32,924 nt of DNA. Source: Bacteroidota bacterium. GTDB taxonomy: Bacteria; Bacteroidota; Bacteroidia; Bacteroidales; VadinHA17. The notes beneath the pieces are model-generated. The model ran no database searches. It was not told the origin of the DNA and saw only the letters and a list, made by a program, of their open reading frames with translations. Shown here in pieces: positions 4,164 through 21,440 of the stretch; position 1 is the stretch's first letter; each line of letters starts with the position of its first letter. Made by a program: the position numbers and the translations under genes. The DNA lies in NCBI GenBank assembly GCA_022709665.1, contig JAKLIJ010000012.1, positions 1 to 32,924 of the forward strand, read 5' to 3'.

Positions 4164-4185
4164 AAGGGTTGCTGGTTGCTGTGTT

Positions 4186-4266
4186 ACCGAATACCGTCCC
4201 GATGGCTATCGGGAACCGAATACTGAATACCGAATACCGAATACCTGCCAACTGCCAACTGCCAAC
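4186..4266. repeat. Tandem heptamer array A (ACCGAAT and TGCCAAC units)
   Basis: Directly seen: five ACCGAAT-type units (one reads ACTGAAT; the first is separated from the rest by the palindrome at 4197-4214), then ACC, then three exact TGCCAAC units. It lies between the convergent ends of the FAD dehydrogenase and omega-amidase genes. The second unit is the reverse complement of the GTTGGCA unit of the array at 11976-12017. No coding function and no terminator-like hairpin with a T-run was found in it. Confidence 0.85.
4197..4214. repeat. 18-bp palindrome, copy 1
   Basis: TCCCGATGGCTATCGGGA can fold into a 7-bp stem (TCCCGAT/ATCGGGA) with a GGCT loop. An identical copy is at 5141-5158. Here it interrupts the ACCGAAT array and is flanked on both sides by ACCG (4193-4196 and 4215-4218), which could be a target duplication or simply the array unit. 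Confidence 0.8.
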
Positions 4267-4286
4267 TTGTTGCTTATTACCTGTTG

Positions 4287-5057
4287 CTACAGTTGTATAG
4301 TGAAATTATCCGCGTCTCCTGCCACTGAGAATCTGGTCCGGAATTCCCTTAACTCATCAGTATTGATATCACATGATATTATGCTTTCCAGGTACGTCTC
4401 TCCTGAAGCCAATATCTCTCCCTTTGGTCCGATCATCATCGAATCGCCGGAATATTTTATACCCATGCCGTCTATTCCCGTGCGGTTGACACCTGCAACA
4501 AAGCATTGATTTTCAATAGCTCTTGCCTTAAGCAGGGTGAGCCATACATCCCTTCGGGCTTCGGGCCAGTTTGCCGAGTTAATGAGAAGATCATAATCGT
4601 TCCGGTTCCTGCTCCAGACGGGAAAGCGCAGGTCGTAGCAGATATTGGGACATATCCTCACCCCTTTGTACTCAAAGACCACCCTTTCGGTACCAGGCGT
4701 ATAATTCACCTCCACACCGCCCTGGGCGAATAAATGCCGCTTATCGTATTTGAACAGTGAGCCTTCAGGCGATATGAACACCCACCTGTTGAAATGGTTT
4801 ACCCCTTCAGCAACCATATAGCTTCCGGCGATTGCAAATCCCTTTTCCCGCGATGTCTTCTGCATCCATTCAAAGGTAAGTGACCGGGGCTCTTCGGCAA
4901 GGACATCCGCTGCAGGAGAAAAACCGGTATTGAACATCTCGGGAAGTATGACGAGCTCAGTTCCTTCGGGCACTCTTCCCAACATTTCCGAAAGCTTTGC
5001 AAAATTGCCTTTTTTGTCCTCCCAGAGGATGTCGTATTGAATGAGAGATATTTTCAT
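4287..5057 (-). CDS. yafV: Omega-amidase, nitrilase superfamily (YafV-like)
   Basis: A 256-residue carbon-nitrogen hydrolase. The Glu-Lys-Cys triad of the nitrilase family is visible: E40 in ELVILPEMFNTGF, K106 in FKYDKRHLFAQGG and C140 in RICPNICYDLRFPVWSR. The length and motif wording match YafV/NIT2-type omega-amidases, which hydrolyse 2-oxoglutaramate or 2-oxosuccinamate to the keto acid and ammonia, a repair or salvage step in glutamine and methionine metabolism in the cytoplasm. The start is placed at MKISLIQYDILW because the upstream in-frame extension to 5162 runs through a repeat and would add 35 residues that the family lacks. The neighbours do not point to a specific pathway. The gene is convergent with the FAD dehydrogenase gene across a heptamer array. 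Confidence 0.9.
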   Translation of the reverse strand: MKISLIQYDILWEDKKGNFAKLSEMLGRVPEGTELVILPEMFNTGFSPAADVLAEEPRSLTFEWMQKTSREKGFAIAGSYMVAEGVNHFNRWVFISPEGSLFKYDKRHLFAQGGVEVNYTPGTERVVFEYKGVRICPNICYDLRFPVWSRNRNDYDLLINSANWPEARRDVWLTLLKARAIENQCFVAGVNRTGIDGMGIKYSGDSMMIGPKGEILASGETYLESIISCDINTDELREFRTRFSVAGDADNFTIQL

Positions 5058-5122
5058 GTCAAAATGATTTGGCTGCTGTAAAAATAAAGCATTAAAATGT
5101 AAGATAAACCAGAAAAGGATAT

Positions 5123-5235
5123 TTACCACGGATAGCACGGTCCCGATGGCTATCGGGATCACAGATAAGATCAGGGTTTATATTTGTTGAAACGATCCGT
5201 GTATTGTCCGTGTTCTCCGTGAAATCAGTGGTTAA
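5123..5235. repeat. Imperfect inverted repeat of CACGGA/TCCGTG words
   Basis: The left arm begins TTACCACGGATAGCACGG and the right arm ends TCCGTGAAATCAGTGGTTAA; their outer parts are mutually complementary with mismatches, about 110 bp end to end. Shorter TCCGTG words recur in the right arm (5194-5220). The left arm is broken by the palindrome at 5141-5158; without it, CACGG would join ATCACAG. The arms could form a large cruciform or an RNA hairpin. Confidence 0.6.
5141..5158. repeat. 18-bp palindrome, copy 2
   Basis: Identical over all 18 bases to the copy at 4197-4214 (stem TCCCGAT/ATCGGGA, loop GGCT). It interrupts the CACGGA-word repeat. The flanks differ completely from those of copy 1, so only the palindrome is shared. 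Confidence 0.8.
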
Positions 5236-5292
5236 AACCAGAAAAAAATTTTAGCATTGATCATCCGGTTACGAAATTATTCGTATTAATTA

Positions 5293-5310
5293 TTCCGAAA
5301 AATTTCGGAA
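5293..5310. repeat. Short AT-rich palindrome
   Basis: TTCCGAAAAATTTCGGAA forms an 8-bp stem (TTCCGAAA/TTTCGGAA) with an AA loop. No T-run typical of a terminator follows on either strand. It could be an operator or just part of the local repeat cluster. Confidence 0.4.
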
Positions 5311-5335
5311 CTATATTTCCTGATTTGCTGTCTTT

Positions 5336-5377
5336 TCCTTTGTCCTGTGCCTTGAATCCTTCGCCTTGTGCCTTGTG
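5336..5377. repeat. Tandem heptamer array B (CCTTGTG-like)
   Basis: Six adjacent 7-base units read TCCTTTG, TCCTGTG, CCTTGAA, TCCTTCG, CCTTGTG, CCTTGTG. They differ by a few bases but keep exact 7-base spacing. The array lies about 110 bp upstream of the serpin start. Confidence 0.75.
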
Positions 5378-5489
5378 TCATGCTTCCCCGACGAAAAATA
5401 TTTCACCTTTCCTGTCACGTTTAGCAAGTATGATTCGTATATGTAAGGTATGAATAACCTAAATCCAGTACTTACTTACAAATAACGAC

Positions 5490-6740
5490 ATGAAAAAATA
5501 TCTTGCATTCATTCTGCCGGGACTGGCAATTCTTTTCCTTGCCCTCTCCTGTTCAAAGGGAAACAATGAAGAACCCGACCTGACACCAAAAGACATTACC
5601 CTCTCTGCTGCGGCACCCGTCGCCATTCAAAGCAGCAACGATTTCGGAATTGAGCTTTTCACAAAGGTGACCGCTGAAGAAGACAAAAACCTCATGCTTT
5701 CGCCCCTCAGCGCAAGCACTGCCCTTACCATGCTTCTCAACGGTTGCGGCGGCGATACTTACTCACAACTGCAGGGTACACTTAAATATCCGGCCGGGAT
5801 GAATATTTCCGAAATCAACGAAGCTTACAAGAGTCTTGTCAGCCAGTTGCTCGTTATCGATCCGAAGGTGCAGCTCGCTCTTGCAAACGCGATCTTCTAC
5901 CGCAACGGATTCAGTGTCAAACCGCCTTTCCTTGCCACAATGAGCAATGATTACAAGGCAACCGTCAAGGGACTTGATTTCGCTGCCCCGTCATCCCTCA
6001 CCACGATCAATAAGTGGGCCAGCGACAATACGAACGGGAAAATACCTGAAGTGTTAAGTGAGATATCAGAGTATGCAGTAATGTTCATCATGAATGCCCT
6101 CTATTTCAACGGCGACTGGAGCTACCAGTTTGACAAATCCCTGACAGATGAACTTCCTTTCCATCCCGATGGCGGCACTACGACTGATGTTACCACAATG
6201 AAGGGTGAAGTGGGCTCAAAGGTTGCCTGGGGCAATGATTTCAGGGCAATTGAAATGCCTTACGGTCAGACCAACTTCACCATGGTGGTGATTGTCCCGG
6301 ACGAAACCCTCAGCGCCCTTTATCCTTCTTTTACATACCAGGTATGGGACAAGCTGACCTCCGACCTTGACGCTCATCCTGAGTTCGGCAAAACAATTGT
6401 AACTATGCCAAAATTCAAATTTTCTTATGAGAAATACCTTAACGACCAGTTGATGAGCATGGGTATGATTGATGCTTTCAGCGATTTCAGAGCAGATCTT
6501 TCAGGAATCTCCGATAATCAGATCTATGTCGACTTCGTGAAGCAAAACACTTTCGTCGAAGTAGATGAGGAAGGAACGGAAGCTGCCGCTGTTACAACGA
6601 TAGGAATAAACCTGACAAGTGTAGGCGATCCGCAGCCAAACCAGTTCATCATCGACAAATCCTTCATCTTTGCCATTCGTGAGCGTACGACAAACACACT
6701 GCTTTTTATAGGGCAGGTGATTAATCCGAAAGAGGAATAG
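5490..6740 (+). CDS. Lipoprotein serpin (serine/cysteine protease inhibitor)
   Basis: A 416-residue serpin with a lipoprotein signal peptide (LFLALSCSKGN, lipidated Cys about residue 21). The serpin fold begins near residue 50 (LMLSPLSASTALTMLLNG) and ends with FIFAIRERTTNTLLFIGQVINP. The reactive-centre hinge is intact: EVDEEGTEAAAVTT (about 357-370), with small residues at P12-P10 as needed for loop insertion, so it should be inhibitory. Counting 15 from the hinge Gly362 puts P1 at Thr376, with Ser377 as P1', but the loop is about four residues longer than in alpha-1-antitrypsin, so P1 is uncertain. The lipobox suggests an outer-membrane anchor, as in miropin of Tannerella forsythia. It probably shields the cell against foreign or self proteases. 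The next gene starts 3 bases after its stop. Confidence 0.93.
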   Translation: MKKYLAFILPGLAILFLALSCSKGNNEEPDLTPKDITLSAAAPVAIQSSNDFGIELFTKVTAEEDKNLMLSPLSASTALTMLLNGCGGDTYSQLQGTLKYPAGMNISEINEAYKSLVSQLLVIDPKVQLALANAIFYRNGFSVKPPFLATMSNDYKATVKGLDFAAPSSLTTINKWASDNTNGKIPEVLSEISEYAVMFIMNALYFNGDWSYQFDKSLTDELPFHPDGGTTTDVTTMKGEVGSKVAWGNDFRAIEMPYGQTNFTMVVIVPDETLSALYPSFTYQVWDKLTSDLDAHPEFGKTIVTMPKFKFSYEKYLNDQLMSMGMIDAFSDFRADLSGISDNQIYVDFVKQNTFVEVDEEGTEAAAVTTIGINLTSVGDPQPNQFIIDKSFIFAIRERTTNTLLFIGQVINPKEE

Positions 6741-6743
6741 ACT

Positions 6744-7916
6744 ATGAAAAGGGCACAGGGCTCAGGGCGCAGGGCACAGGGCGAAGAGTATGGCAAACTT
6801 TTCTTCATTCTCTCTATAATTTATACTGCAGTAATTCTCCTTTCAGGCTGCAGCAAGGACGATTTTCCCGTAGCCGAAGATAAAGATGCTGTCGGCGAAA
6901 TTCAGATGAATACTCTTTTTAATATCAGGGAGATATCTGATGGTTTCATAATTGCAGGAGTAAGTGACTCGAAAATAAAAATCTCAAAACTGGATGTAAA
7001 TTTCAACACTGTCTGGAGCAAAGATGACTTTGACTGGGGGAACAATTCTTCAGAAGGCGGCTGGGGCGGTGCTTTTTATTCCGTTGAGATAGTTAATGTT
7101 GTTGAAAAGGGAAATGGCAACATCCTCATCTTTTGTTCAATTGTGGAAGGCTCCGATGTTATGCTCAGTTCAGCCCTGATCGTTATGCTTGACGGATCGG
7201 GGAAGGAACTTTTCAGGAAAGAGCTGGACGATTACATGCTCATCAACGCTTTAGCGACCAATGGTGAAAGATTCCTTCTGTTTGGCAGCAGCCTGATCAG
7301 GCTGAACTCAGATTTTTCAATCGCATGGGAGAATGATGACCATAATTATGTATTCTCAGGAGCAAATGCCATTCAGACTGACGATAATGGCTTTGCAGTA
7401 ACAGGCACATGGAGCAGCCAGCAGGTTTTGCTTCAAAAACTTAATGAAAACGGGATTATCCAGTGGGACAAAAGCAACTTTAATTCAGATCCATTCAATG
7501 ATCTTGGTTACGATTTATATCAAATGTCTGATAAGGGATTTTTAATAATCGGCAGAACCAGAAGTATAAATGAACCCTGGGATATGAATTGTTTCATTAT
7601 CAGGACTGAATCTTCAGGAGACACCCTCTGGACCAGGAAATACGGAGAAGGATCGGATGAGTGGTTTGAAGAAATCCTGTATGCCTCCGATGATGAGTTT
7701 GTGATAAGAAAAACTGTTGGTTATCCTGTCGACACTGAGCGGAAGGGGTTTCTGATGAGCATTTCCGGGAACGGTGAGGTATCTGAATCCCGTGAGATAA
7801 ATATCAATGACTATTTCCTCCGGACTTCATCCGGATATTTTGTCAGGGCTGTAAAAGAAGGAGACAGGATCATATCCTTATCCAAAATACAATTGCAAAA
7901 CCTGTGTGACAATTAA
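6744..7916 (+). CDS. Beta-propeller-like lipoprotein of unknown function
   Basis: A 390-residue predicted lipoprotein. Its signal peptide has an unusually long, basic n-region because the first codons after the ATG are a heptamer array (6751-6785), read as RAQGSGRRAQGE; then comes a hydrophobic stretch and the lipobox LLSGCSKDD. The K-D-D after the lipid Cys resembles the surface-export signal known for Bacteroidota lipoproteins, so the protein may face outward (inference). The body has repeated blades of the kind DNGFAVTGTWSSQQVLLQKL and DKGFLIIGRTRS, with W-containing strands such as GDTLWTRKYGEG, typical of bacterial beta-propellers with delta-60-like repeats. No catalytic motif is visible. 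It starts 3 bases after the serpin stop, so the two are almost surely co-transcribed. No better in-frame ATG was found downstream before the signal sequence. Confidence 0.75.
   Translation: MKRAQGSGRRAQGEEYGKLFFILSIIYTAVILLSGCSKDDFPVAEDKDAVGEIQMNTLFNIREISDGFIIAGVSDSKIKISKLDVNFNTVWSKDDFDWGNNSSEGGWGGAFYSVEIVNVVEKGNGNILIFCSIVEGSDVMLSSALIVMLDGSGKELFRKELDDYMLINALATNGERFLLFGSSLIRLNSDFSIAWENDDHNYVFSGANAIQTDDNGFAVTGTWSSQQVLLQKLNENGIIQWDKSNFNSDPFNDLGYDLYQMSDKGFLIIGRTRSINEPWDMNCFIIRTESSGDTLWTRKYGEGSDEWFEEILYASDDEFVIRKTVGYPVDTERKGFLMSISGNGEVSESREININDYFLRTSSGYFVRAVKEGDRIISLSKIQLQNLCDN
6751..6785. repeat. Tandem heptamer array C inside a coding region (GGGCACA-like)
   Basis: Five adjacent units, GGGCACA, GGGCTCA, GGGCGCA, GGGCACA, GGGCGAA, begin 4 bases after the ATG at 6744 ends. 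A 7-base unit shifts frame at every copy, so gain or loss of units would change the reading frame except in multiples of three. Confidence 0.85.
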
Positions 7917-7958
7917 ATACTTAAAAAACTGCAACTCACTCAAATCCATAAACCAATC

Positions 7959-9245
7959 ATGAAAACAACAATCAGATTATCGCTTACGGTTCTGGTCCTG
8001 ACGGCATTTCTGTCGTCATGTTCCGACAAGACTGTGGAAAGGATCACTTACGAGGCTAACGTACCTGTTTACATTTCGTTCAATGAATTCCGGACCAGTT
8101 TCACAAAGAGTGACCCCATTGAAATATGCCAGCCGGGAAAGATCTACTTCAAAGACAACTATCTATTTGTCAACGAAATAGGCAAAGGGATCCATGTCAT
8201 CGACAATTCTGACCCTGCCAATCCCATAAAAAAGGCATTTTACGAAATAATGGGAAATGTTGATATGGCAATAAGGGGGAACATTCTTTTTGCCGACAGC
8301 TATATCGATCTTGTGGCAATCGATATAAGCGATATTGAAGATCCGGTAGAAGTCGGCAGGATCGAGAACGTCTTTCCTGAGGTTGTACCCGAAGGAGACC
8401 AGTGGTATCCCTATGCAATGGTCGACAAGTCAAAGGGCGTGATCATCGACTGGGAAGTTAAGACAGTCACAGAGGAACGTGAACCCGGAAGCGCCTGGAA
8501 TGGTTATCTGTACAAAGGTGAGATGATGTTTCTGTCAGCTGCCGACGGCGCTGCAAACTGGTCGGCCGGGGCAGGAACGGCCGGATCCATGGCAAGGTTC
8601 ATGCTGAACGGCCATTATCTTTATCTTATTGCCCATCCCTGGATGATGAAGACTGTTAATGTGGCAGAAGCTGATGAAATGAGTATCGTCGACAGCATAA
8701 ATGTTTCCCGCAATATGGAAACTCTCTTTCTTCTTGGGGAAAAATTGTTTGTCGGGACTACCACCGGATTGCTTATCTATGATGTTTCGAATGCAACAAA
8801 GCCAGGATTTATATCGCATTACGATCATATTACCGCCTGCGATCCGGTAGTTGCCGATGAAAACTATGCCTATGTAACTCTCCGTACAGGCACCAGATGC
8901 GCCAATGGTCAGAACCTGCTGGAGGTAATTGATATTTCCTCAATCACAAGTCCTTATCTGGTGAAATCATATCCCATGTACAACCCTCACGGACTCGGCA
9001 TTGACGGCGATCTCCTGTTTGTATGTGACGGGACGGCCGGACTGAAGATCTATGATAAATCTGATCCTCTCGACATTATAAACAGAAAAATTGCGCACTA
9101 TCCCGGATTTTTCACCTATGATGTCATACCGATGGGCGGTACGCTCATGCTTGTGGGAGAGGAAGGAATATACCAGTATGACTACTCCGATCCGGAAAAT
9201 ATTGAACAGATAAGCTACATTCCAATTACAGGCAACGAAGAGTGA
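7959..9245 (+). CDS. LVIVD-repeat lipoprotein
   Basis: A 428-residue predicted lipoprotein (signal peptide with lipobox AFLSSCSDK). The body is made of LVIVD-type repeats, in which a short strand is followed by a V-D-I-S-D-P-like turn: GIHVIDNSDPANPIKKAF, LVAIDISDIEDPVEVGRI, GLLIYDVSNATKPGF, LLEVIDISSITSPYLV and GLKIYDKSDPLDI. These repeats build a beta-propeller found in many surface and secreted bacterial proteins; no enzymatic role is established for them. It follows the propeller lipoprotein after 42 bases and is followed after 3 bases by the barrel protein gene, so it belongs to the same cell-surface block. Partner or ligand is unknown. Confidence 0.85.
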   Translation: MKTTIRLSLTVLVLTAFLSSCSDKTVERITYEANVPVYISFNEFRTSFTKSDPIEICQPGKIYFKDNYLFVNEIGKGIHVIDNSDPANPIKKAFYEIMGNVDMAIRGNILFADSYIDLVAIDISDIEDPVEVGRIENVFPEVVPEGDQWYPYAMVDKSKGVIIDWEVKTVTEEREPGSAWNGYLYKGEMMFLSAADGAANWSAGAGTAGSMARFMLNGHYLYLIAHPWMMKTVNVAEADEMSIVDSINVSRNMETLFLLGEKLFVGTTTGLLIYDVSNATKPGFISHYDHITACDPVVADENYAYVTLRTGTRCANGQNLLEVIDISSITSPYLVKSYPMYNPHGLGIDGDLLFVCDGTAGLKIYDKSDPLDIINRKIAHYPGFFTYDVIPMGGTLMLVGEEGIYQYDYSDPENIEQISYIPITGNEE

Positions 9246-9248
9246 ACC

Positions 9249-9989
9249 ATGAAAGGAACCAAAACACCATTGGTAGTTATACTGTTAGCATTAACTGTCA
9301 CTCTGGCGGCTCAGAGAAGTCAGAAACAGACCGTTGTTCTTAACGGCGGTTCCCGGATAACCGGCACAGTACTGGCTGCTGATCAGGATTCGGTGAAAAT
9401 GAGAATTACCACTCCCCAGGTGATCACACTGAAAAAATCAGATGTTGCGCAGGGTTCAGCTGCAGCAGTAAGTGAAAGACAGCATATTGACAGGCATGGC
9501 TATACAATAGGCATGTCGGCATCGTCGCTTACCGGCCGGAAAGATGAGGAAAACGTCGGCAGCATGAGCTTTCACATTTCAAACGGCTACAGCTTCAGAA
9601 ACGGATTGAGCCTTGGGATAGGAACAGGATATGAGGAAATTGATGTGGCTGTGATGCCTTTGTATGCCGATTTCAGGTATCATCCCCTGAAAACGCGTAT
9701 GTCGCCCTTCGCCTGGGTTAAGGGTGGCTGGTCATTTGCATTCGGGGATCTTGACAACGGACAATACTATTACTATGATTTCCCAAAAGCAAGGGGAGGA
9801 ATCATGTATTGTGCCGGAGCGGGTATCGAACTGGCTTCCTGGGGAGGGAATGCCGTCAATTTCGGAGTGGGTTACCGTTTCCAGAGGATCACTTTCAAAT
9901 ACAGCGAATCCACTTATATGACAACCCCCCGGGAGCTTGTCACCTCTTATAACCGGATTGAAGTGCAGGTCGGTTTTGTTTTCAGGTAG
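9249..9989 (+). CDS. Outer-membrane beta-barrel protein with N-terminal small beta domain
   Basis: A 246-residue exported protein with a classical signal peptide ending ALTVTLAAQ. Residues about 27-65 (VVLNGGSRITGTVLAADQDS, then VKMRITTPQVITLKKSDV) resemble the short domain often written as LKNGSVIKGTI in Bacteroidota outer-membrane proteins. The rest alternates glycine and aromatic strands (YSFRNGLSLGIGTGYEEI, FAWVKGGWSFAFGD, NAVNFGVGYRFQRITFKY) and ends VEVQVGFVFR in sense, with a terminal aromatic pair VFR close to the usual barrel end. An eight-strand porin-like barrel is likely, ligand unknown. Only 3 bases separate it from the preceding LVIVD gene. Confidence 0.72.
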   Translation: MKGTKTPLVVILLALTVTLAAQRSQKQTVVLNGGSRITGTVLAADQDSVKMRITTPQVITLKKSDVAQGSAAAVSERQHIDRHGYTIGMSASSLTGRKDEENVGSMSFHISNGYSFRNGLSLGIGTGYEEIDVAVMPLYADFRYHPLKTRMSPFAWVKGGWSFAFGDLDNGQYYYYDFPKARGGIMYCAGAGIELASWGGNAVNFGVGYRFQRITFKYSESTYMTTPRELVTSYNRIEVQVGFVFR

Positions 9990-10022
9990 GCCAGAAAAAT
10001 GAAAAAACAAACAAAAAACCAT

Positions 10023-10055
10023 CCGGATTAAGTTATTTTTGGGATACTTATCCGG
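10023..10055. promoter_or_regulatory. Inverted repeat bracketing the -7 box of the ECF sigma gene
   Basis: The half-sites CCGGATTAAGT (10023-10033) and ACTTATCCGG (10046-10055) are complementary apart from one extra T. Between them lies TATTTTTG (10034-10041), an exact TAnnTTTG -7 box, 24 bases before the ATG at 10065. A dimeric repressor bound here would cover the promoter. A hairpin in the transcript is less likely, as the left arm lies upstream of the predicted start. No clear -33 box is seen. Confidence 0.5.
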
Positions 10056-10064
10056 AAGGTTGAA

Positions 10065-10652
10065 ATGAGAAGGAGAAAAGAAGATGAAAAGGCATTGTCA
10101 GACATGGATCTTGTCAGGCGATCTTCGGATGGAGAGCCCCGCGCCCGGGAGCTTCTCTACAAACGCTATTTCTCATTTGCCATGTCGATATGCATCAGAT
10201 ATACCAAAGACCAGTACGAAGCAATGGAGGTAGTTAACGACAGCTTTATGAAGGTACTTGGAAACATAGCGGAATATGACGGTTCGAATCCTTTCATGGC
10301 ATGGTATGGCAGGATCCTGGTAAATTCTGCCGTGGATAATTACCGGAAGAACTCAAGGAGGCAGGCAACTTTCCTGCAATATTTTAATCAGGAATCTCCC
10401 GAAGAAATGGAAGATCCTCCTGTAGATGCCGAGCTTTCGGCAAGAGACATTCTGTCGCTTTTCGGCTGCCTGCCTGAGAATTACAGGGTGATCTTTAACC
10501 TGTACGAAATTGAAGGCTATTCGCATGAGGAGATAAGTAAAATGCTTGATATAAGCGAATCAGCTTCAAGAACGAATCTTTCCCGGGCAAAAAAGCTGCT
10601 CCGTGAACTGTATAAAAAGAATTTTAACCCTGAAAGGAGGAGTCATGAATAA
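10065..10652 (+). CDS. ECF-type RNA polymerase sigma factor
   Basis: A 195-residue sigma-70 family protein of the extracytoplasmic-function group. Region 2 is at about residues 28-95 (LLYKRYFSFAMSICIRYT, then YEAMEVVNDSFMKVL and FMAWYGRILVNSAVDNYRK). Region 4 is at about 130-185 (LPENYRVIFNLYEIEGYSHE, then ISKMLDISESASRTNLSRAK), with the helix-turn-helix that reads the -35-type element. Regions 1.2, 3 and a C-terminal extension are absent. Its last 8 bases overlap the next gene, the usual layout of a sigma factor with its regulator. The promoter is bracketed by an inverted repeat. Targets are unknown; the adjacent surface-protein genes are candidates by position only. Confidence 0.92.
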   Translation: MRRRKEDEKALSDMDLVRRSSDGEPRARELLYKRYFSFAMSICIRYTKDQYEAMEVVNDSFMKVLGNIAEYDGSNPFMAWYGRILVNSAVDNYRKNSRRQATFLQYFNQESPEEMEDPPVDAELSARDILSLFGCLPENYRVIFNLYEIEGYSHEEISKMLDISESASRTNLSRAKKLLRELYKKNFNPERRSHE

Positions 10653-11958
10653 ATTTGACGACATACTCAGGGAAAATGTAAAAAAGGCATTCGCCAATTA
10701 CAATTCTGATCACCTTGCCGACGAGGGATGGAAATCGTTCGTGGAGATGCAGAAAGGGAAGCGCAGACGAGCGGTTATTATCCCCCTGTGGGCAAGGGCA
10801 GCCTCAATTTTGCTTATAATCGGATTAGGGACATTTCTTGCTTACCGTTTATCAGTCCATCAGACAACCAGGGAAATAATATCAGCCACAGAACCAGCGG
10901 CCGGCAGGAATGAAGAACATACTGCACCGGTTGCATCCCGGCCTGCGGTTACTCCGGTTGCAGAAAGTGCTTCAGAAACTGCCGGCGTGACAGTCCGGAC
11001 CAAAAAGCCCTACCCTGAATATCAGCCTGCAATTGCTTCAGACGAAACATTTCTTAAGGCTGATCGGGCCGGCGGTGCTGACGACAACATTCACGCAATA
11101 CTGCAAAACAGGTCAGTCTATCCTGACATCCTGCCTGTTCCGGCTATGACCTTATCATTCAGTGAATTATTTAATAAATCAGTTCCTGATGAAATAATGC
11201 AGGAACAAAGTATTTCTGCAGCCATAATTTTTGATGGATCCGGATCTGTTGAGGAATCAACGGAAACTGAAAAAAGTTTCGCACGAAGGAGCTTACTTGC
11301 AGGTCTGTCGGGTTCAATGGCCCGGTCAGAAGAGGCATCGCCATCTGCATCCGGCTTATCAATGGGATTGTATCTTGATCAGAAGATCACGAGGAGGATC
11401 TCATTCCGCCCGGGGCTTGCACTTGCAATGCAATCCTTTGGAATAGAAAACGAAAACTATACTGCAGGAGTTAACTATCCAATATCCTTAAATGACGGTA
11501 CTGCAGGCACACCCTATGCCTTCGACGGACAGTTAAGCATGCTGGCCATGGAGTTGCCTTTGAATCTTGTAATCAGAATATTTGAGAAGGAACGGTCAGG
11601 CTTTTTTGTTTCCGCCGGAACATCCACTATATTCTACATAAGCCAGCAGTTTAAGGCCGATGTGGTAAACGGATACACAAAGATGGAGTTGGATGCACTG
11701 ACCGGATCATATTCGTCAGTGACCAGGTATTCAACCATTGAAGTCGAAAAGGATTTTGGGTCATTCAGAAACACCGACTTTTTCGGACTTGCAAACCTGT
11801 CGGCTGGTTACTCTTTCCCTTACAGTAAAACAGGCACCCTGCTTGTGGAACCTTTTGTTCAACTGCCTGTTGATGATCTTACAAGTCTTGATCTGAAGAT
11901 AAGATACGCCGGAGTATCAATGAAACTGCAGTTTGGCAACAGGGACAAAGGGAAATGA
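10645..11958 (+). CDS. Anti-sigma-like N-terminus joined to an outer-membrane barrel-like C-terminus
   Basis: This 437-residue protein starts at an ATG with a good AGGAGG site 4 bases upstream, inside the end of the sigma gene; a longer in-frame version from 10603 has no such site. Residues 1-45 (FDDILRENVKKAFANYN, then DEGWKSFVEMQKGKRRR) are soluble and charged, as in short anti-sigma domains. One membrane helix follows at about 49-68 (WARAASILLIIGLGTFLAYR). A Ser/Pro/Glu-rich linker runs to about 210. The C-terminal half looks like a Bacteroidota outer-membrane barrel (SMGLYLDQKITRRISFRPGL, FFVSAGTSTIFYISQQF, LANLSAGYSFPYSKTG and a final AGVSMKLQFG). If the topology is right it would span from cytoplasm to outer membrane. 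Function as sigma regulator is inferred from position and N-terminus. Confidence 0.72.
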   Translation: MNKFDDILRENVKKAFANYNSDHLADEGWKSFVEMQKGKRRRAVIIPLWARAASILLIIGLGTFLAYRLSVHQTTREIISATEPAAGRNEEHTAPVASRPAVTPVAESASETAGVTVRTKKPYPEYQPAIASDETFLKADRAGGADDNIHAILQNRSVYPDILPVPAMTLSFSELFNKSVPDEIMQEQSISAAIIFDGSGSVEESTETEKSFARRSLLAGLSGSMARSEEASPSASGLSMGLYLDQKITRRISFRPGLALAMQSFGIENENYTAGVNYPISLNDGTAGTPYAFDGQLSMLAMELPLNLVIRIFEKERSGFFVSAGTSTIFYISQQFKADVVNGYTKMELDALTGSYSSVTRYSTIEVEKDFGSFRNTDFFGLANLSAGYSFPYSKTGTLLVEPFVQLPVDDLTSLDLKIRYAGVSMKLQFGNRDKGK

Positions 11959-11975
11959 CTCACAAGTAACTGCAA

Positions 11976-12017
11976 GTTGGCAGTTAGCAGTTAGCAGTTG
12001 GCTGTTGGCAGTTGGCA
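11976..12017. repeat. Tandem heptamer array D (GTTGGCA)
   Basis: Six adjacent units: GTTGGCA, GTTAGCA, GTTAGCA, GTTGGCT, GTTGGCA, GTTGGCA. It lies between the convergent ends of the anti-sigma-like gene and the unrecognised gene at 12036. The unit is the reverse complement of TGCCAAC in array A, 7.7 kb away. Confidence 0.88.
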
Positions 12018-12035
12018 GTCAGAAGACTTTGTGCC

Positions 12036-13193
12036 TCACCCCTGTCTGCCTGCTATGGAGCTGTAGTAATCGTTGAAAATAGTCTTCAACAGCGGTTTGT
12101 AGTACAGCCAGAAGAATCTCCGGCTGTCCGCCGGCTTATCAGAGTAATTTATACCCTTGATGCCATTGAATCCCTTCAACCGTGACAGGCAGTAACTGAC
12201 ATCATTGTTTGCAAAGTCGCCTGAAAAATAGAAAGTCCTTCCAATTGAGTCACTGGTTACAGCAGGAAAGCTGTTCCTGAGCATTCCGGTTGCGAGGAGT
12301 GTGTCTCCGAGGGCTGTTGTCGAGAGTTCAAACTTTGAAATAACTGTACTTTCAAGCGGGTCGATAATATCAAACCACTTGTCGAAAGCAACTTTTTCTG
12401 GCACTCCGTATTTTGAAGCGTTTTCGGCTTCTGTATGTATAAAGGGTTTGGCATCCGTAAGGTGGGTCCCTTCTTCAAGTACTATGATCTGCTTGTCGCT
12501 GAGAAATACTATTCCCGGTCTTGTAAAAGTCCATGGCCGGCCGTACTCTTTTCTGTACATGGCAGTCATCCATACAGGGAAGTTTTTCGAAGTAGTATCG
12601 AGTTTTTCAAAATATTTGCCTGTCCAGCCTGAGGTCTTTATCCCAAGTTTTTCCTGGGTCCTGTATGATTCAAACTCAGATGTCGGAAAATCGAGTGTAT
12701 TATATTCGAGAATTATCAGCTTGTTCCTATTTTTCATTTCATTAACAAGCAGATAATCTGTATTATTCAGACCACCGTATATTTTTCTTGAGCGTCTGCT
12801 TTTATTGACACCGACGTACCAGTCGTTGAAGAACACCCCGTAAGTATCGGCAAAATAAATAGCGTCAGTTTTTTCGGGAAGGTCGATCATCTCGGAGAGA
12901 TGGTACTCATTAGTGGTATTTCCCCTGTCCTTCAGCGGTCTTGTGGGTGCAAACCCGTAATAGTCCTTCCTGTACGAATAGGATGATTTCTTTTCTTTCT
13001 TAACAAAGCGATCGTTGTTGAGTATCCATGTCAGCGACTTATGATTAATGCGTTCGAGAGTGGGCACCGTCTTATCAAGAATAAGCACGTCGAGAGGTTT
13101 TTTCTCCTGAAAAGTCCAACGGATCAGGTTAAAGAAGGGGAAGGCAAATATCAGAACAATAATGCCAAGGGTTATAAGCAGAGGCTTTTTCAT
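12036..13193 (-). CDS. Membrane-anchored protein of unknown function
   Basis: I do not recognise the family of this 385-residue protein. It starts MKKPLLITLGIIVLIFAFPF, one N-terminal membrane segment (about residues 5-25) without a lipobox, so the rest is probably periplasmic. The following KPLDVLILDKTVPT with a later KLIILEYNTLDFPT and GIVFLSDKQIIVLEEGTHL suggests an alpha/beta fold with parallel strands, somewhat like glutamine-amidotransferase-like folds, but no Cys-His pair could be placed. The C-terminal half has the strand pair TFYFSGDFANNDVSYCLSRL. It is rich in Lys, Tyr and Trp (FFWLYYKPLLKTIFNDYYSS near the end). It stands alone on the minus strand downstream of the GGT gene, 143 bp away, with no terminator seen between. 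Confidence 0.6.
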   Translation of the reverse strand: MKKPLLITLGIIVLIFAFPFFNLIRWTFQEKKPLDVLILDKTVPTLERINHKSLTWILNNDRFVKKEKKSSYSYRKDYYGFAPTRPLKDRGNTTNEYHLSEMIDLPEKTDAIYFADTYGVFFNDWYVGVNKSRRSRKIYGGLNNTDYLLVNEMKNRNKLIILEYNTLDFPTSEFESYRTQEKLGIKTSGWTGKYFEKLDTTSKNFPVWMTAMYRKEYGRPWTFTRPGIVFLSDKQIIVLEEGTHLTDAKPFIHTEAENASKYGVPEKVAFDKWFDIIDPLESTVISKFELSTTALGDTLLATGMLRNSFPAVTSDSIGRTFYFSGDFANNDVSYCLSRLKGFNGIKGINYSDKPADSRRFFWLYYKPLLKTIFNDYYSSIAGRQG

Positions 13194-15055: not shown

Positions 15056-15176
15056 GGAACAGGGTTTCAGGCAGGAAAAATAGACAAAAAAATGATATGC
15101 GTATGTTTGGGGCATGCCCGGATTCAATGTTTCTCCATCCGCAATTGTTTTATTACTTTTACCCAAATTTCCGACC

Positions 15177-16472
15177 ATGCTGGCAAATCAACCACTGGCT
15201 GACAGGCTGAGGCCCAGGAATCTTGATGAATTCTGCGGTCAGGAGCATCTTGTGGGCCCCAACGGAGTGCTGAGGAAAGCTATCGAATCGGGAAATATCC
15301 CCTCTTTCATTCTCTGGGGGCCTCCCGGAACAGGTAAGACTACCCTTGCCTGGATAGTTTCAAACACCCTCAAAAGGCCATTTTTCCATCTGAGCGCCGT
15401 TCACTCGGGGGTAAAGGATGTCAGGGAGACAATTGAAAAGGCAAAAAAGCAGCAGTTCTTCAATCAGCCCAATCCGGTTCTTTTTATTGACGAGATCCAC
15501 AGATTCAATAAATCGCAGCAGGATTCGCTTCTCGGCTCAGTTGAGCAGGGAATAATAACACTCATCGGGGCCACAACTGAAAATCCGTCCTTTGAGGTGA
15601 TCACCCCTCTCCTTTCACGCTGTCAGGTTTATGTAATGAATCCGCTTGGTGAAAAAGAACTGGAAAGCCTTCTCGACACTGCTCTTAAGAAGGACCTGTA
15701 CCTCGCCAAATTCGATATTGAGATCAGGGAAAATGAAGCGCTTCTGAGGATATCCGGAGGTGATGCGAGGAAGCTTTTCAATGCCCTCGAACTGGTTGTT
15801 TCCGGCGAATCGGATGATGCTTCGCCTGGGAAGATTGTAATTGACAATGAAATGGTTCTCAGACACGTACAAAAGAACCTGGCAATATACGACAAGAACG
15901 GGGAACAGCACTACGATATAATATCTGCATTTATCAAGTCGATGAGGGGAAGCGATCCCAACGCGACTGTTTACTGGCTTGCCAGGATGGTTGAAGGCGG
16001 AGAGGATCCGAAGTTTATAGCCAGGAGGATGCTTATACTGGCTGCAGAAGACATTGGTCTGGCGAATCCCAACGCCCTTCTGCTGGCCCAGGCCTGCTTT
16101 GAATCGATAAATGTTGTGGGATGGCCGGAATCCAGGATAATACTGTCAGAAACTGCAGTTTACCTGGCTACCTCTCCAAAGAGCAATGCCTCCTATATGG
16201 CAATAGAAAATGCTATTGGACTTGTCAGAGAAAAGGGCGATCTTCCTGTTCCTCTTAATATAAGAAATGCTCCTACAAAACTGATGAAGGATCTGGGTTA
16301 TCACAAAGGATACAGATATGCACACGATTTTGAAGGCAACTTTGTGAAGGATGAGTTCCTTCCCGGGGAGATAAGCGGAACAAGGCTGTATGATCCTGGA
16401 GACAATCCCAGGGAGGAAGAGATAAGGCGAAGGCTGAGGGACATGTGGAAGGGCAAATACAATTATGAATAA
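15177..16472 (+). CDS. rarA: Replication-associated recombination AAA+ ATPase RarA
   Basis: A 431-residue AAA+ protein of the RarA/MgsA/WRNIP1 family, which acts at stalled replication forks. Walker A GPPGTGKTT is at 48-56 and Walker B VLFIDEIHRFNKSQQD at 101-116; GATTENPSFEV (131-141) is the typical sensor-1 region. The C-terminal part holds the tetramerisation domain (AAEDIGLANPNALLLAQACF) and the closing signature LGYHKGYRYAHDFEGNFV. The start MLANQPLADRLRPRNLDEF is chosen because that wording opens the family; the in-frame ATG at 15114 adds 21 residues without homology. A TACTTTTA (15154-15161) close to TAnnTTTG may be its -7 box. The gene ends 42 bases before kdsA. Confidence 0.95.
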   Translation: MLANQPLADRLRPRNLDEFCGQEHLVGPNGVLRKAIESGNIPSFILWGPPGTGKTTLAWIVSNTLKRPFFHLSAVHSGVKDVRETIEKAKKQQFFNQPNPVLFIDEIHRFNKSQQDSLLGSVEQGIITLIGATTENPSFEVITPLLSRCQVYVMNPLGEKELESLLDTALKKDLYLAKFDIEIRENEALLRISGGDARKLFNALELVVSGESDDASPGKIVIDNEMVLRHVQKNLAIYDKNGEQHYDIISAFIKSMRGSDPNATVYWLARMVEGGEDPKFIARRMLILAAEDIGLANPNALLLAQACFESINVVGWPESRIILSETAVYLATSPKSNASYMAIENAIGLVREKGDLPVPLNIRNAPTKLMKDLGYHKGYRYAHDFEGNFVKDEFLPGEISGTRLYDPGDNPREEEIRRRLRDMWKGKYNYE

Positions 16473-21367: not shown

Positions 21368-21440
21368 AGCGCAGGGCTCTGAACACAAAATGTCCGACGC
21401 AGCTTTGGCGAAGGTGAAGGGTTCAGGGGCGGGAGCAAAG
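21368..21440. repeat. Degenerate repeat in the PstS-TPR gap
   Basis: The 282-bp gap before the TPR gene holds words close to the heptamer arrays: GCGCAGGGCTCTGAACA at its start, like the GGGCTCA/GGGCGCA units at 6751-6785, and GGCGAAGGTGAAGGGTTCAG later, like the complement of the array at 5336-5377. Seven-base spacing is loose. I see no gene, terminator or clear promoter in the rest of the gap. Confidence 0.35.

Follow-up and report, generated by a model that had tools for sequence, protein, structure and literature searches.

Short tandem arrays with a unit of seven bases recur in a stretch of 32,924 nucleotides (hereafter the window) from a Bacteroidota bacterium of the VadinHA17 lineage of Bacteroidales (assembly GCA_022709665.1, contig JAKLIJ010000012.1, positions 1 to 32,924, forward strand). 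Tandem Repeats Finder returned 14 rows for the window, seven of which have period 7, while periods 6 and 8 are absent. Three array sites are firm, a compound one at 4167-4267 and two others at 6750-6782 and 11975-12019, and their units differ. The heptamer features and the palindrome embedded in them are the following:

4167..4181, + strand: GGTTGCT x2.1, in a convergent gap, where it forms the left block of a compound heptamer cassette
4186..4196, + strand: ACCGAATACCG, heptamer text left of the palindrome
4197..4214, no strand: 18-bp palindrome TCCCGATGGCTATCGGGA, lying within the ACCGAAT run and dispersed in the genus as a repeat of its own
4215..4245, + strand: ACCGAAT x4.4 (Tandem Repeats Finder)
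4245..4267, + strand: TGCCAAC x3.3 (Tandem Repeats Finder)
5336..5377, + strand: degenerate 7-periodic text in the gap from which the amidase and serpin genes diverge, at the start of the serpin-OMP module
6750..6782, + strand: GGGCNCA x4.7 (Tandem Repeats Finder)
11975..12019, + strand: AGTTGGC/AGTTAGC x6.4, in the gap where the OMP-like gene and the gene at 12036-13193 converge
21369..21387, + strand: probable remnant of a GGGCNCA array, from alignment with the orthologous gap in G007

The initial annotation had placed exact arrays at 4186-4266 (ACCGAAT then TGCCAAC), 6751-6785 (GGGCACA-like) and 11976-12017 (GTTGGCA). All three were recovered with slightly shifted limits, and TGCCAAC and GTTGGCA are indeed reverse complements, but the word exact was too strong, as the arrays at 4215, 6750 and 11975 include variant units (88-91% matches in Tandem Repeats Finder). 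A further CCTTGTG-like array proposed at 5336-5377 amounts to 2.1 exact copies (5363-5377) amid degenerate text, which is below the array threshold. Near 21368, where a weak array had been suspected, the window itself holds none, but its text aligns with the orthologous gap of the sister species G007, which carries 13 copies of GGGCNCA; the window site is thus probably the remnant of an array kept in G007. The seventh period-7 row, at 4552-4566, lies within a gene.

The preference for seven extends well beyond the window. The own-genome set consisted of the window and 20 further pieces (216,973 bases; 249,897 bases in all), five of the 20 having been picked for hits to array queries, and short loci around search hits in the same genome were also read. 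Exact period-7 runs with 12 or more matched bases number 20 in these 249,897 bases, as compared with 0.0 in five first-order Markov shuffles and with one such run at period 6, none at period 8 and six at period 9. When the five chosen pieces are removed (180,998 bases, approximate-array score), six arrays of period 7 remain, with none of period 6, one of period 8 and five of period 9. The genus set comprised 40 pieces (651,859 bases) chosen as neighbours of homologues of window genes and not by their repeats. It yielded 20 arrays of period 7, four of period 6, five of period 8, three of period 9 and four of period 10, along with seven of period 14 and three of period 21. The fixed period with varied units described in the initial annotation is therefore real in the own genome and in the genus pieces, stands out against shuffled sequence and is not confined to this stretch.

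More distant relatives behave differently. The distant set was made of 20 first-contig pieces (366,822 bases) from members of the order, class or phylum picked by handle, and it shows no period-7 excess (three arrays of period 7, two of period 8 and four of period 10). Intergenic runs of 7-9 matches at distance 7 were counted 41 times, where 16 were expected, in a combined set of 65 own-genome and genus pieces, which includes nine pieces taken by contig number (five genus genomes with known arrays); in the distant pieces they were counted three times, where seven were expected. Runs of at least 14 at the same distance occur 13 times in the 101,990 intergenic bases of the own-genome and genus pieces and once in the 43,163 of the distant ones, a contrast weakened both by the smaller size of the latter, less than half of the former, and by the presence of AACTGNN arrays elsewhere in at least two distant genomes (G092 and G135). 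Because the excess is present in the own-genome and genus pieces and absent from the distant ones, the genus favours period 7, but the preference is not universal. This speaks against a polymerase property common to all bacteria as the sole cause. Nor is seven the sole step, since period 8 has eight intergenic runs of at least 14 against the 13 of period 7. Period-8 arrays were seen in G006 (TTNNACCG; L066 12303-12349) and in G007 (GTCTTGCG; L052 8432-8561), the latter with period-14 arrays beside it. Intergenic text with a period of about 10 was also noticed, by eye, at 5122-5232 of the window (CACGGAT / TCCGTG), and relatives have CTCTGTG and CACAGAG arrays (L063 13102-13129 and L066 18545-18583).

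The arrays sit mainly between gene ends. With genes called mechanically as open reading frames (ORFs), an array is found in 12 of 79 convergent gaps of the 65 pieces, 13 of 345 tandem gaps and one of 87 divergent gaps (Fisher P 0.0008 for convergent versus divergent and 0.0005 for convergent versus tandem), that is, 1.16, 0.31 and 0.05 arrays per kb of gap, respectively. Thirty arrays fall in gaps and three in 815 kb of ORFs. The 15 tandem-gap arrays are split between the upstream stop (eight closer) and the downstream start (seven closer). A scan of species genomes for three copies of TGCCAAC found at least 120 stretches, of which 80 loci were listed. Among these listed matches from many phyla, arrays occupy 20 of 63 convergent, 46 of 177 tandem and three of 45 divergent gaps, with 103 arrays in gaps and 77 in mechanically called ORFs. 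The convergent-gap bias agrees with removal of arrays from promoters and reading frames, and also with a role at gene ends.

In the window, the GGGCNCA array at 6750-6782 starts nine bases past the serpin stop codon, in the first codons of the ORF at 6744-7916. In our reading, this array-bearing start runs on into a lipoprotein-like signal peptide ending in LSGC, and a change of one unit in the array would shift the frame, as in phase-variable genes. The ORF has weak matches in four of 35 relatives (27-33% identity) and none in the other 31.

Sister species show that the unit of an array can be replaced as a whole while its gap stays the same. The main matching blocks of G033 and G007 are about 73-88% identical to the window at the DNA level. 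Between the OMP-like gene and the gene at 12036-13193 (X385), the window has AGTTGGC, G033 has GGGCNCA and G007 has its reverse complement. Downstream of the serpin gene, GGGCNCA in the window corresponds to AGTTGGC and ATTCGGT in G033 and to CTCTGCG-like units in G021. Downstream of the FAD-oxidase gene, where the window has its compound site, G013 has GGTTCAA, G007 has period-8 and period-14 arrays and G033 has no array. Further units of the genus are TCAGGCG, ACTTTTT, AAAAGAC, TCTTTTA and GTTTGRA. A unit shared across species was met in one case, with one genome per species, namely the 13 GGGCNCA copies of G007 and the remnant in the window.

Some gaps seem to attract arrays repeatedly (g155|g402 in 5 of 20 cases, g347|g765 in 5 of 16, FAD|amid in 4 of 14 and OMP|X385 in 3 of 3). 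Once gaps are weighted by length, the excess has a P of 0.049 (224 gaps, 21 with an array) or of 0.15 (177 non-divergent gaps, 20 with an array), and recurrence at particular gaps is therefore not claimed. An array lies at the OMP|X385 junction in all three of the window, G033 and G007, which is probably one event seen three times. The genes from the serpin gene to the OMP-like gene form a module (5490-11958; serpin, LVIVD, a protein of 246 amino acids, ECF sigma and OMP) that lies at other places in G025, G014 and G021; its OMP end adjoins X385 in the window, in G033 and, as far as the contig reaches, in G007. Arrays as scars of rearrangement were also considered. Given how few arrays lie at other new adjacencies (serpin|u390 1/1, FAD|X385 0/5, X385|g452 1/5, g233|g452 0/3, g155|g276 0/2, LVIVD|u390 0/1 and FAD|g452 0/1), this idea is not claimed either. 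An AAA ATPase gene of the RarA kind lies near the arrays (15114-16472; best NCBIfam matches below cut-offs), and as it occupies the same region in relatives, no link to the arrays is claimed.

Certain words recur far outside the genus. Within the phylum, 19 of 395 genomes (8 of 171 genera) carry three copies of TGCCAAC, and one of the 395 carries the reversed word. Among the 80 matches listed from species genomes, record titles name Chloroflexi, Cyanobacteria, Verrucomicrobia, Proteobacteria, Bacteroidetes with Chlorobi, Firmicutes, Acidobacteria, Aminicenantes, Planctomycetes, Lentisphaerae and Patescibacteria, that is, at least eleven phylum-level groups defined by title only and open to contamination. 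Counting Aminicenantes and Lentisphaerae with their neighbouring groups brings the number to nine. The matches listed include the named strains Thiocystis minor DSM 178 and Lentisphaera marina IMCC 11369. Apart from the query arrays themselves, the 80 listed loci hold 118 arrays of period 7, seven of period 6, ten of period 8 and nine of period 9. In viral contigs, the threefold TGCCAAC is present in 48 stretches and the reversed word in two. AACTGNN arrays occur in 19 of 148 phylum genomes (16 of 83 genera). Units are thus not wholly arbitrary, TGCCAAC being far commoner than its reversed form and commoner than one scramble of it. Such recurrence may reflect common ancestry, transfer or a bias of the process. 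A common grammar of units was sought among 147 distinct unit classes and set aside, the enrichment being weak (ACTG, z 4.1) and coming in part from the choice of TGCCAAC loci. TGCCAAC arrays in bacteria are not named in the literature searched by listings, a search that left subscription journals mostly outside.

The order of units within arrays bears on how they grow. In 94 arrays with at least seven units and at least two variants, including loci selected for their arrays in the TGCCAAC scans of species genomes and viral contigs, identity between units at lag 1 is 0.435 versus 0.337 after permutation (69 arrays above, 25 below), at lag 2 it is 0.393 versus 0.335 (60 above, 34 below), and at lag 3 there is no excess (0.325 versus 0.335; 46 above, 48 below), although arrays of one genome are related, so that the test may count kin repeatedly. 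An excess at lags 1 and 2 and not at 3 is the signature of duplications that span one or two units. Variation also clusters at a few of the seven positions (0.52 versus 0.34 at the most variable one; 82 arrays), but the spread of a single change by duplication gives the same concentration, and nothing is drawn from it.

In our view, the arrays are probably heptanucleotide simple-sequence repeats (SSRs) that originate by 7-base slippage, are kept where they are harmless and are sometimes copied as compound cassettes. First, a short 7-base duplication would arise and then be lengthened by 7 (or 14) bases at a time through slippage or misalignment. Second, point changes in single units would spread by the same 7- or 14-base step, such that the unit drifts while the period stays. 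Third, arrays would persist chiefly between two gene ends, since at other places they would disrupt promoters or reading frames. Finally, existing arrays may occasionally be copied to new places as compound cassettes, with GTTGCTG, ACCGAAT and TGCCAAC in fixed order. The period, the location bias, the distant pieces without excess, the change of unit in one gap and the similarity of neighbouring units are observed; slippage as the cause, selection behind the location and copying between loci are what we infer.

Several results weigh against SSRs grown by slippage as a sufficient account, besides the related arrays in the lag test, the bearing of the distant pieces on a universal polymerase property and the two weaknesses of the distant contrast given above. 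Plain slippage does not predict one favoured period (5, 6, 8 and 9 are much rarer), nor one heptamer in many phyla, nor cassettes of fixed order. Outside the genus, threefold TGCCAAC falls in called ORFs in 39 of 81 cases in species genomes (matches listed) and in 25 of 48 viral cases; with half of the copies in ORFs, the fit to the location rule is poor unless many of these ORFs are not genes. Controls for word preference also found matches. The scrambled heptamer ATCACGC x3 is present in nine viral stretches, five of them in mechanically called ORFs; the hexamer control TGCCAA (21 bases) is present in 67, exceeding the heptamer with its 48, and 62 of the 67 lie in called ORFs as compared with 25 of the 48; and ACTCAGC x3 gave 21 rows from 17 contigs. 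The reversed AACTGNN control occurs in 8 of 148 genomes; in our reading, three of these have AACTGTC or mixed AACTG arrays as well, and rotations of such arrays contain GTCAA.

A bolder reading is that some lineages have a dedicated process by which DNA is written and lengthened exactly seven bases at a time. Such a process would prefer certain words (AACTGNN foremost, with TGCCAAC arrays under eleven phylum-level titles), act mainly at gene ends, replace units over species time, and be lost and gained sporadically. We regard it as doubtful. The initial annotation had suggested that the copying process counts seven bases rather than recognizing one sequence, and such dedicated counting is still a candidate; the refuting outcome it named, with period-7 arrays no commoner than those of period 6 or 8 or limited to this stretch, was not observed in the genus, and the 20 distant phylum pieces show no period-7 excess.

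The arrays could instead be functional 3'-end elements (binding sites, terminators, G-quadruplexes or roadblocks) selected as such while their unit may change, as the strong convergent-gap bias and the presence of different units in the same gaps of several species would lead one to expect. Tandem-gap arrays of the own-genome and genus pieces also have more G than C on the coding strand in 13 of 15 cases, but background tandem-gap pieces lean to G on that strand too (119 of 201), and other array sets show no lean or the opposite one (33 of 56; 9 of 31). TGCCAAC stands in sense 11 times and in antisense 13 times in tandem gaps of species-genome loci (matches listed), and 12 and 3 times in viral ones. 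A strand-specific rule was rejected, there being no consistent lean across sets and background skew accounting for part of it. Moreover, recurrence in the same gaps is not clearly beyond what gap length gives (P 0.049 for 224 gaps, 0.15 for 177 non-divergent ones), and as single-stranded DNA the window stretches fold no better than shuffles (z -0.34, 0.07 and 0.00). A 3'-end function is unlikely.

The compound site of the window raises the prospect of a dispersed, perhaps mobile, element of the MITE or REP type with a body built of heptamers. Nine loci from G000, G033 and G012 were displayed, all drawn from the hit lists of searches with the window cassette (L069-L096 were retrieved by similarity to it). 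Seven of the nine follow the order GTTGCTG or GGTACGC, then ACCGAAT, then CTGCCAA, although in L019 and L020 one of the three blocks is a single copy; L092 has the first two blocks and L071 has a different block order. The 18-bp palindrome lies in the middle of the cassette in five of the nine, once imperfectly. As all nine loci were fetched with the site of the window, their choice favours this order, which is suggestive only. No common ends could be seen by eye in them, and most arrays in the genus pieces are of a single unit without a cassette, all of which makes a mobile element distinctly unlikely. The palindrome TCCCGATGGCTATCGGGA has a distribution of its own. It occurs at 4197-4214 and 5141-5158 of the window, is also met outside heptamer arrays, and is found in 28 of 36 genus genomes (76 copies in G026), its reversed control being absent from all 36.

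Arrays as arms of hairpins would account for the strong folds of two spacers in a tRNA-gene cluster of Chloroflexaceae (L156; z -5.96 and -5.12) and of the cassettes L092 (z -3.83) and L005 (z -3.21). The other seven of the 11 folded stretches, the three of the window included, have z values between -1.73 and +1.48. Array pairs within 300 bp are inverted as often as direct in species-genome loci (18 versus 18 of 113; matches listed), and inverted versus direct pairs number 0 versus 1 of 4 in the own genome, 0 versus 0 of 3 in the genus and 0 versus 3 of 26 in viral contigs. With inverted mates no commoner than direct ones, the hairpin explanation is not general and is very unlikely. The Chloroflexaceae contig itself (L156, 1-4411) has 26 predicted tRNA genes in a row, besides a tmRNA call that overlaps, and many of the spacers hold inverted heptamer arrays.

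A telomerase-like reverse transcriptase that copies a short RNA template, its product being captured at breaks, would fit a fixed period with varying units and several units per genome, and DRT10 enzymes do make tandem-repeat DNA, with varied motif lengths (PMC12632851, preprint). Yet RVT_1 is absent, as far as the Pfam model detects it (it may miss some), from six of 12 genomes with TGCCAAC or ACCGAAT arrays, namely G000 (84% complete), G028, G033 and the 97-98% complete G015, G157 and G208. It is present in 12 of 18 comparison genomes without these words in the searches. Since the latter partly bear arrays (G011, G013 and G171 hold other heptamer arrays), the result shows merely that an RVT_1 enzyme is not needed, and we hold this origin to be highly improbable. 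Chance or assembly artefact has next to no probability: although the genome is fragmented, the window being one of its contigs, and several arrays elsewhere lie at contig ends (e.g., G284 C20, G224 C3 and G190 C23), shuffles give 0.0 exact runs and arrays also lie within near-complete single contigs such as G092 C1 (2,587,874 bases).

Tandem heptamers are known from other bacteria. The STRR sequences of heterocystous cyanobacteria are tandem heptamers with several units per genome, as are the arrays here, and their units are probably different ones. The neuO gene of Escherichia coli K1 has a heptanucleotide tract for phase variation. A 7-base array in the 5' part of a coding sequence, which such tracts exemplify, is possibly found at 6750-6782; most own-genome and genus arrays differ in lying outside genes.

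The initial annotation knew of no described mechanism for a Bacteroidota equivalent; such repeats in Bacteroidetes and a slippage proposal are in print. Heptamers repeated at least three times are over-represented at the median Bacteroidetes genus, with a score of 0.75 (Huang and Mrazek, 2014; PMC4060949), and TAACTGA arrays are reported for Beggiatoaceae, Cyanobacteria and five Bacteroidetes, some of whose gaps hold other heptamers too (MacGregor, 2015; PMC4679880). Slippage tied to a 7-base polymerase contact was proposed by Mrazek et al. (2007), as cited in PMC4679880 and PMC4692102. The present arrays resemble long heptanucleotide SSRs in that their period 7 exceeds chance, is commoner than 6 and 8 and is mostly noncoding in the own genome and the genus; such surveys count repeats, and the genus adds the replacement of units gap by gap, the cassettes and the contrast with distant relatives.

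The TAACTGA repeats share with the present arrays an intergenic location and a sporadic distribution across phyla, and TAACTGA is a rotation of AACTGAT, an AACTGNN unit; it is nevertheless none of the 29 unit classes of the own-genome and genus pieces. In the Beggiatoaceae genome, they lie mostly just 5' of start codons, and related heptamers are rarely repeated (PMC4679880). The own-genome and genus arrays lack such a start-proximal position and have a convergent-gap bias instead, lie mostly at gene ends and use many units per genome. GGGAATC of Xanthomonas and GGGGA(C/T)T of Nostoc are G-quadruplex formers of one consensus, with variable positions, rarity in divergent gaps and an obscure role; in two related Xanthomonas, most of these repeats occupy corresponding gene gaps but differ in sequence (Rehm et al., 2015; PMC4692102). 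That paper also refers to an STRR case in Calothrix with three heptamers. The genus shares the variable positions, the rarity in divergent gaps and the changed sequence in same-gene gaps. It differs in that unrelated units replace each other and that a run of three G or C is found in three of the 29 unit classes, GGGCNCA included.

The arrays of the window thus belong to a known but unexplained kind of bacterial repeat. The heptamer excess in prokaryotes, Bacteroidetes included, the slippage hypothesis and the persistence of repeats with changed sequence in the same gaps were already known. Added here are the replacement of whole units at a fixed period within a genus, the contrast with distant relatives, the signature of duplication and the wide recurrence of TGCCAAC. 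As a warning to annotators, intergenic heptamer arrays turn over fast and are not to be taken as conserved regulatory sites. The cause of the frequent period seven in bacterial tandem repeats is a question raised in 2007. Here one genus holds on to the period as its words change, and pieces of distant relatives show no excess; this constitutes a natural experiment on that cause, and the words common to several phyla offer a second handle on it.

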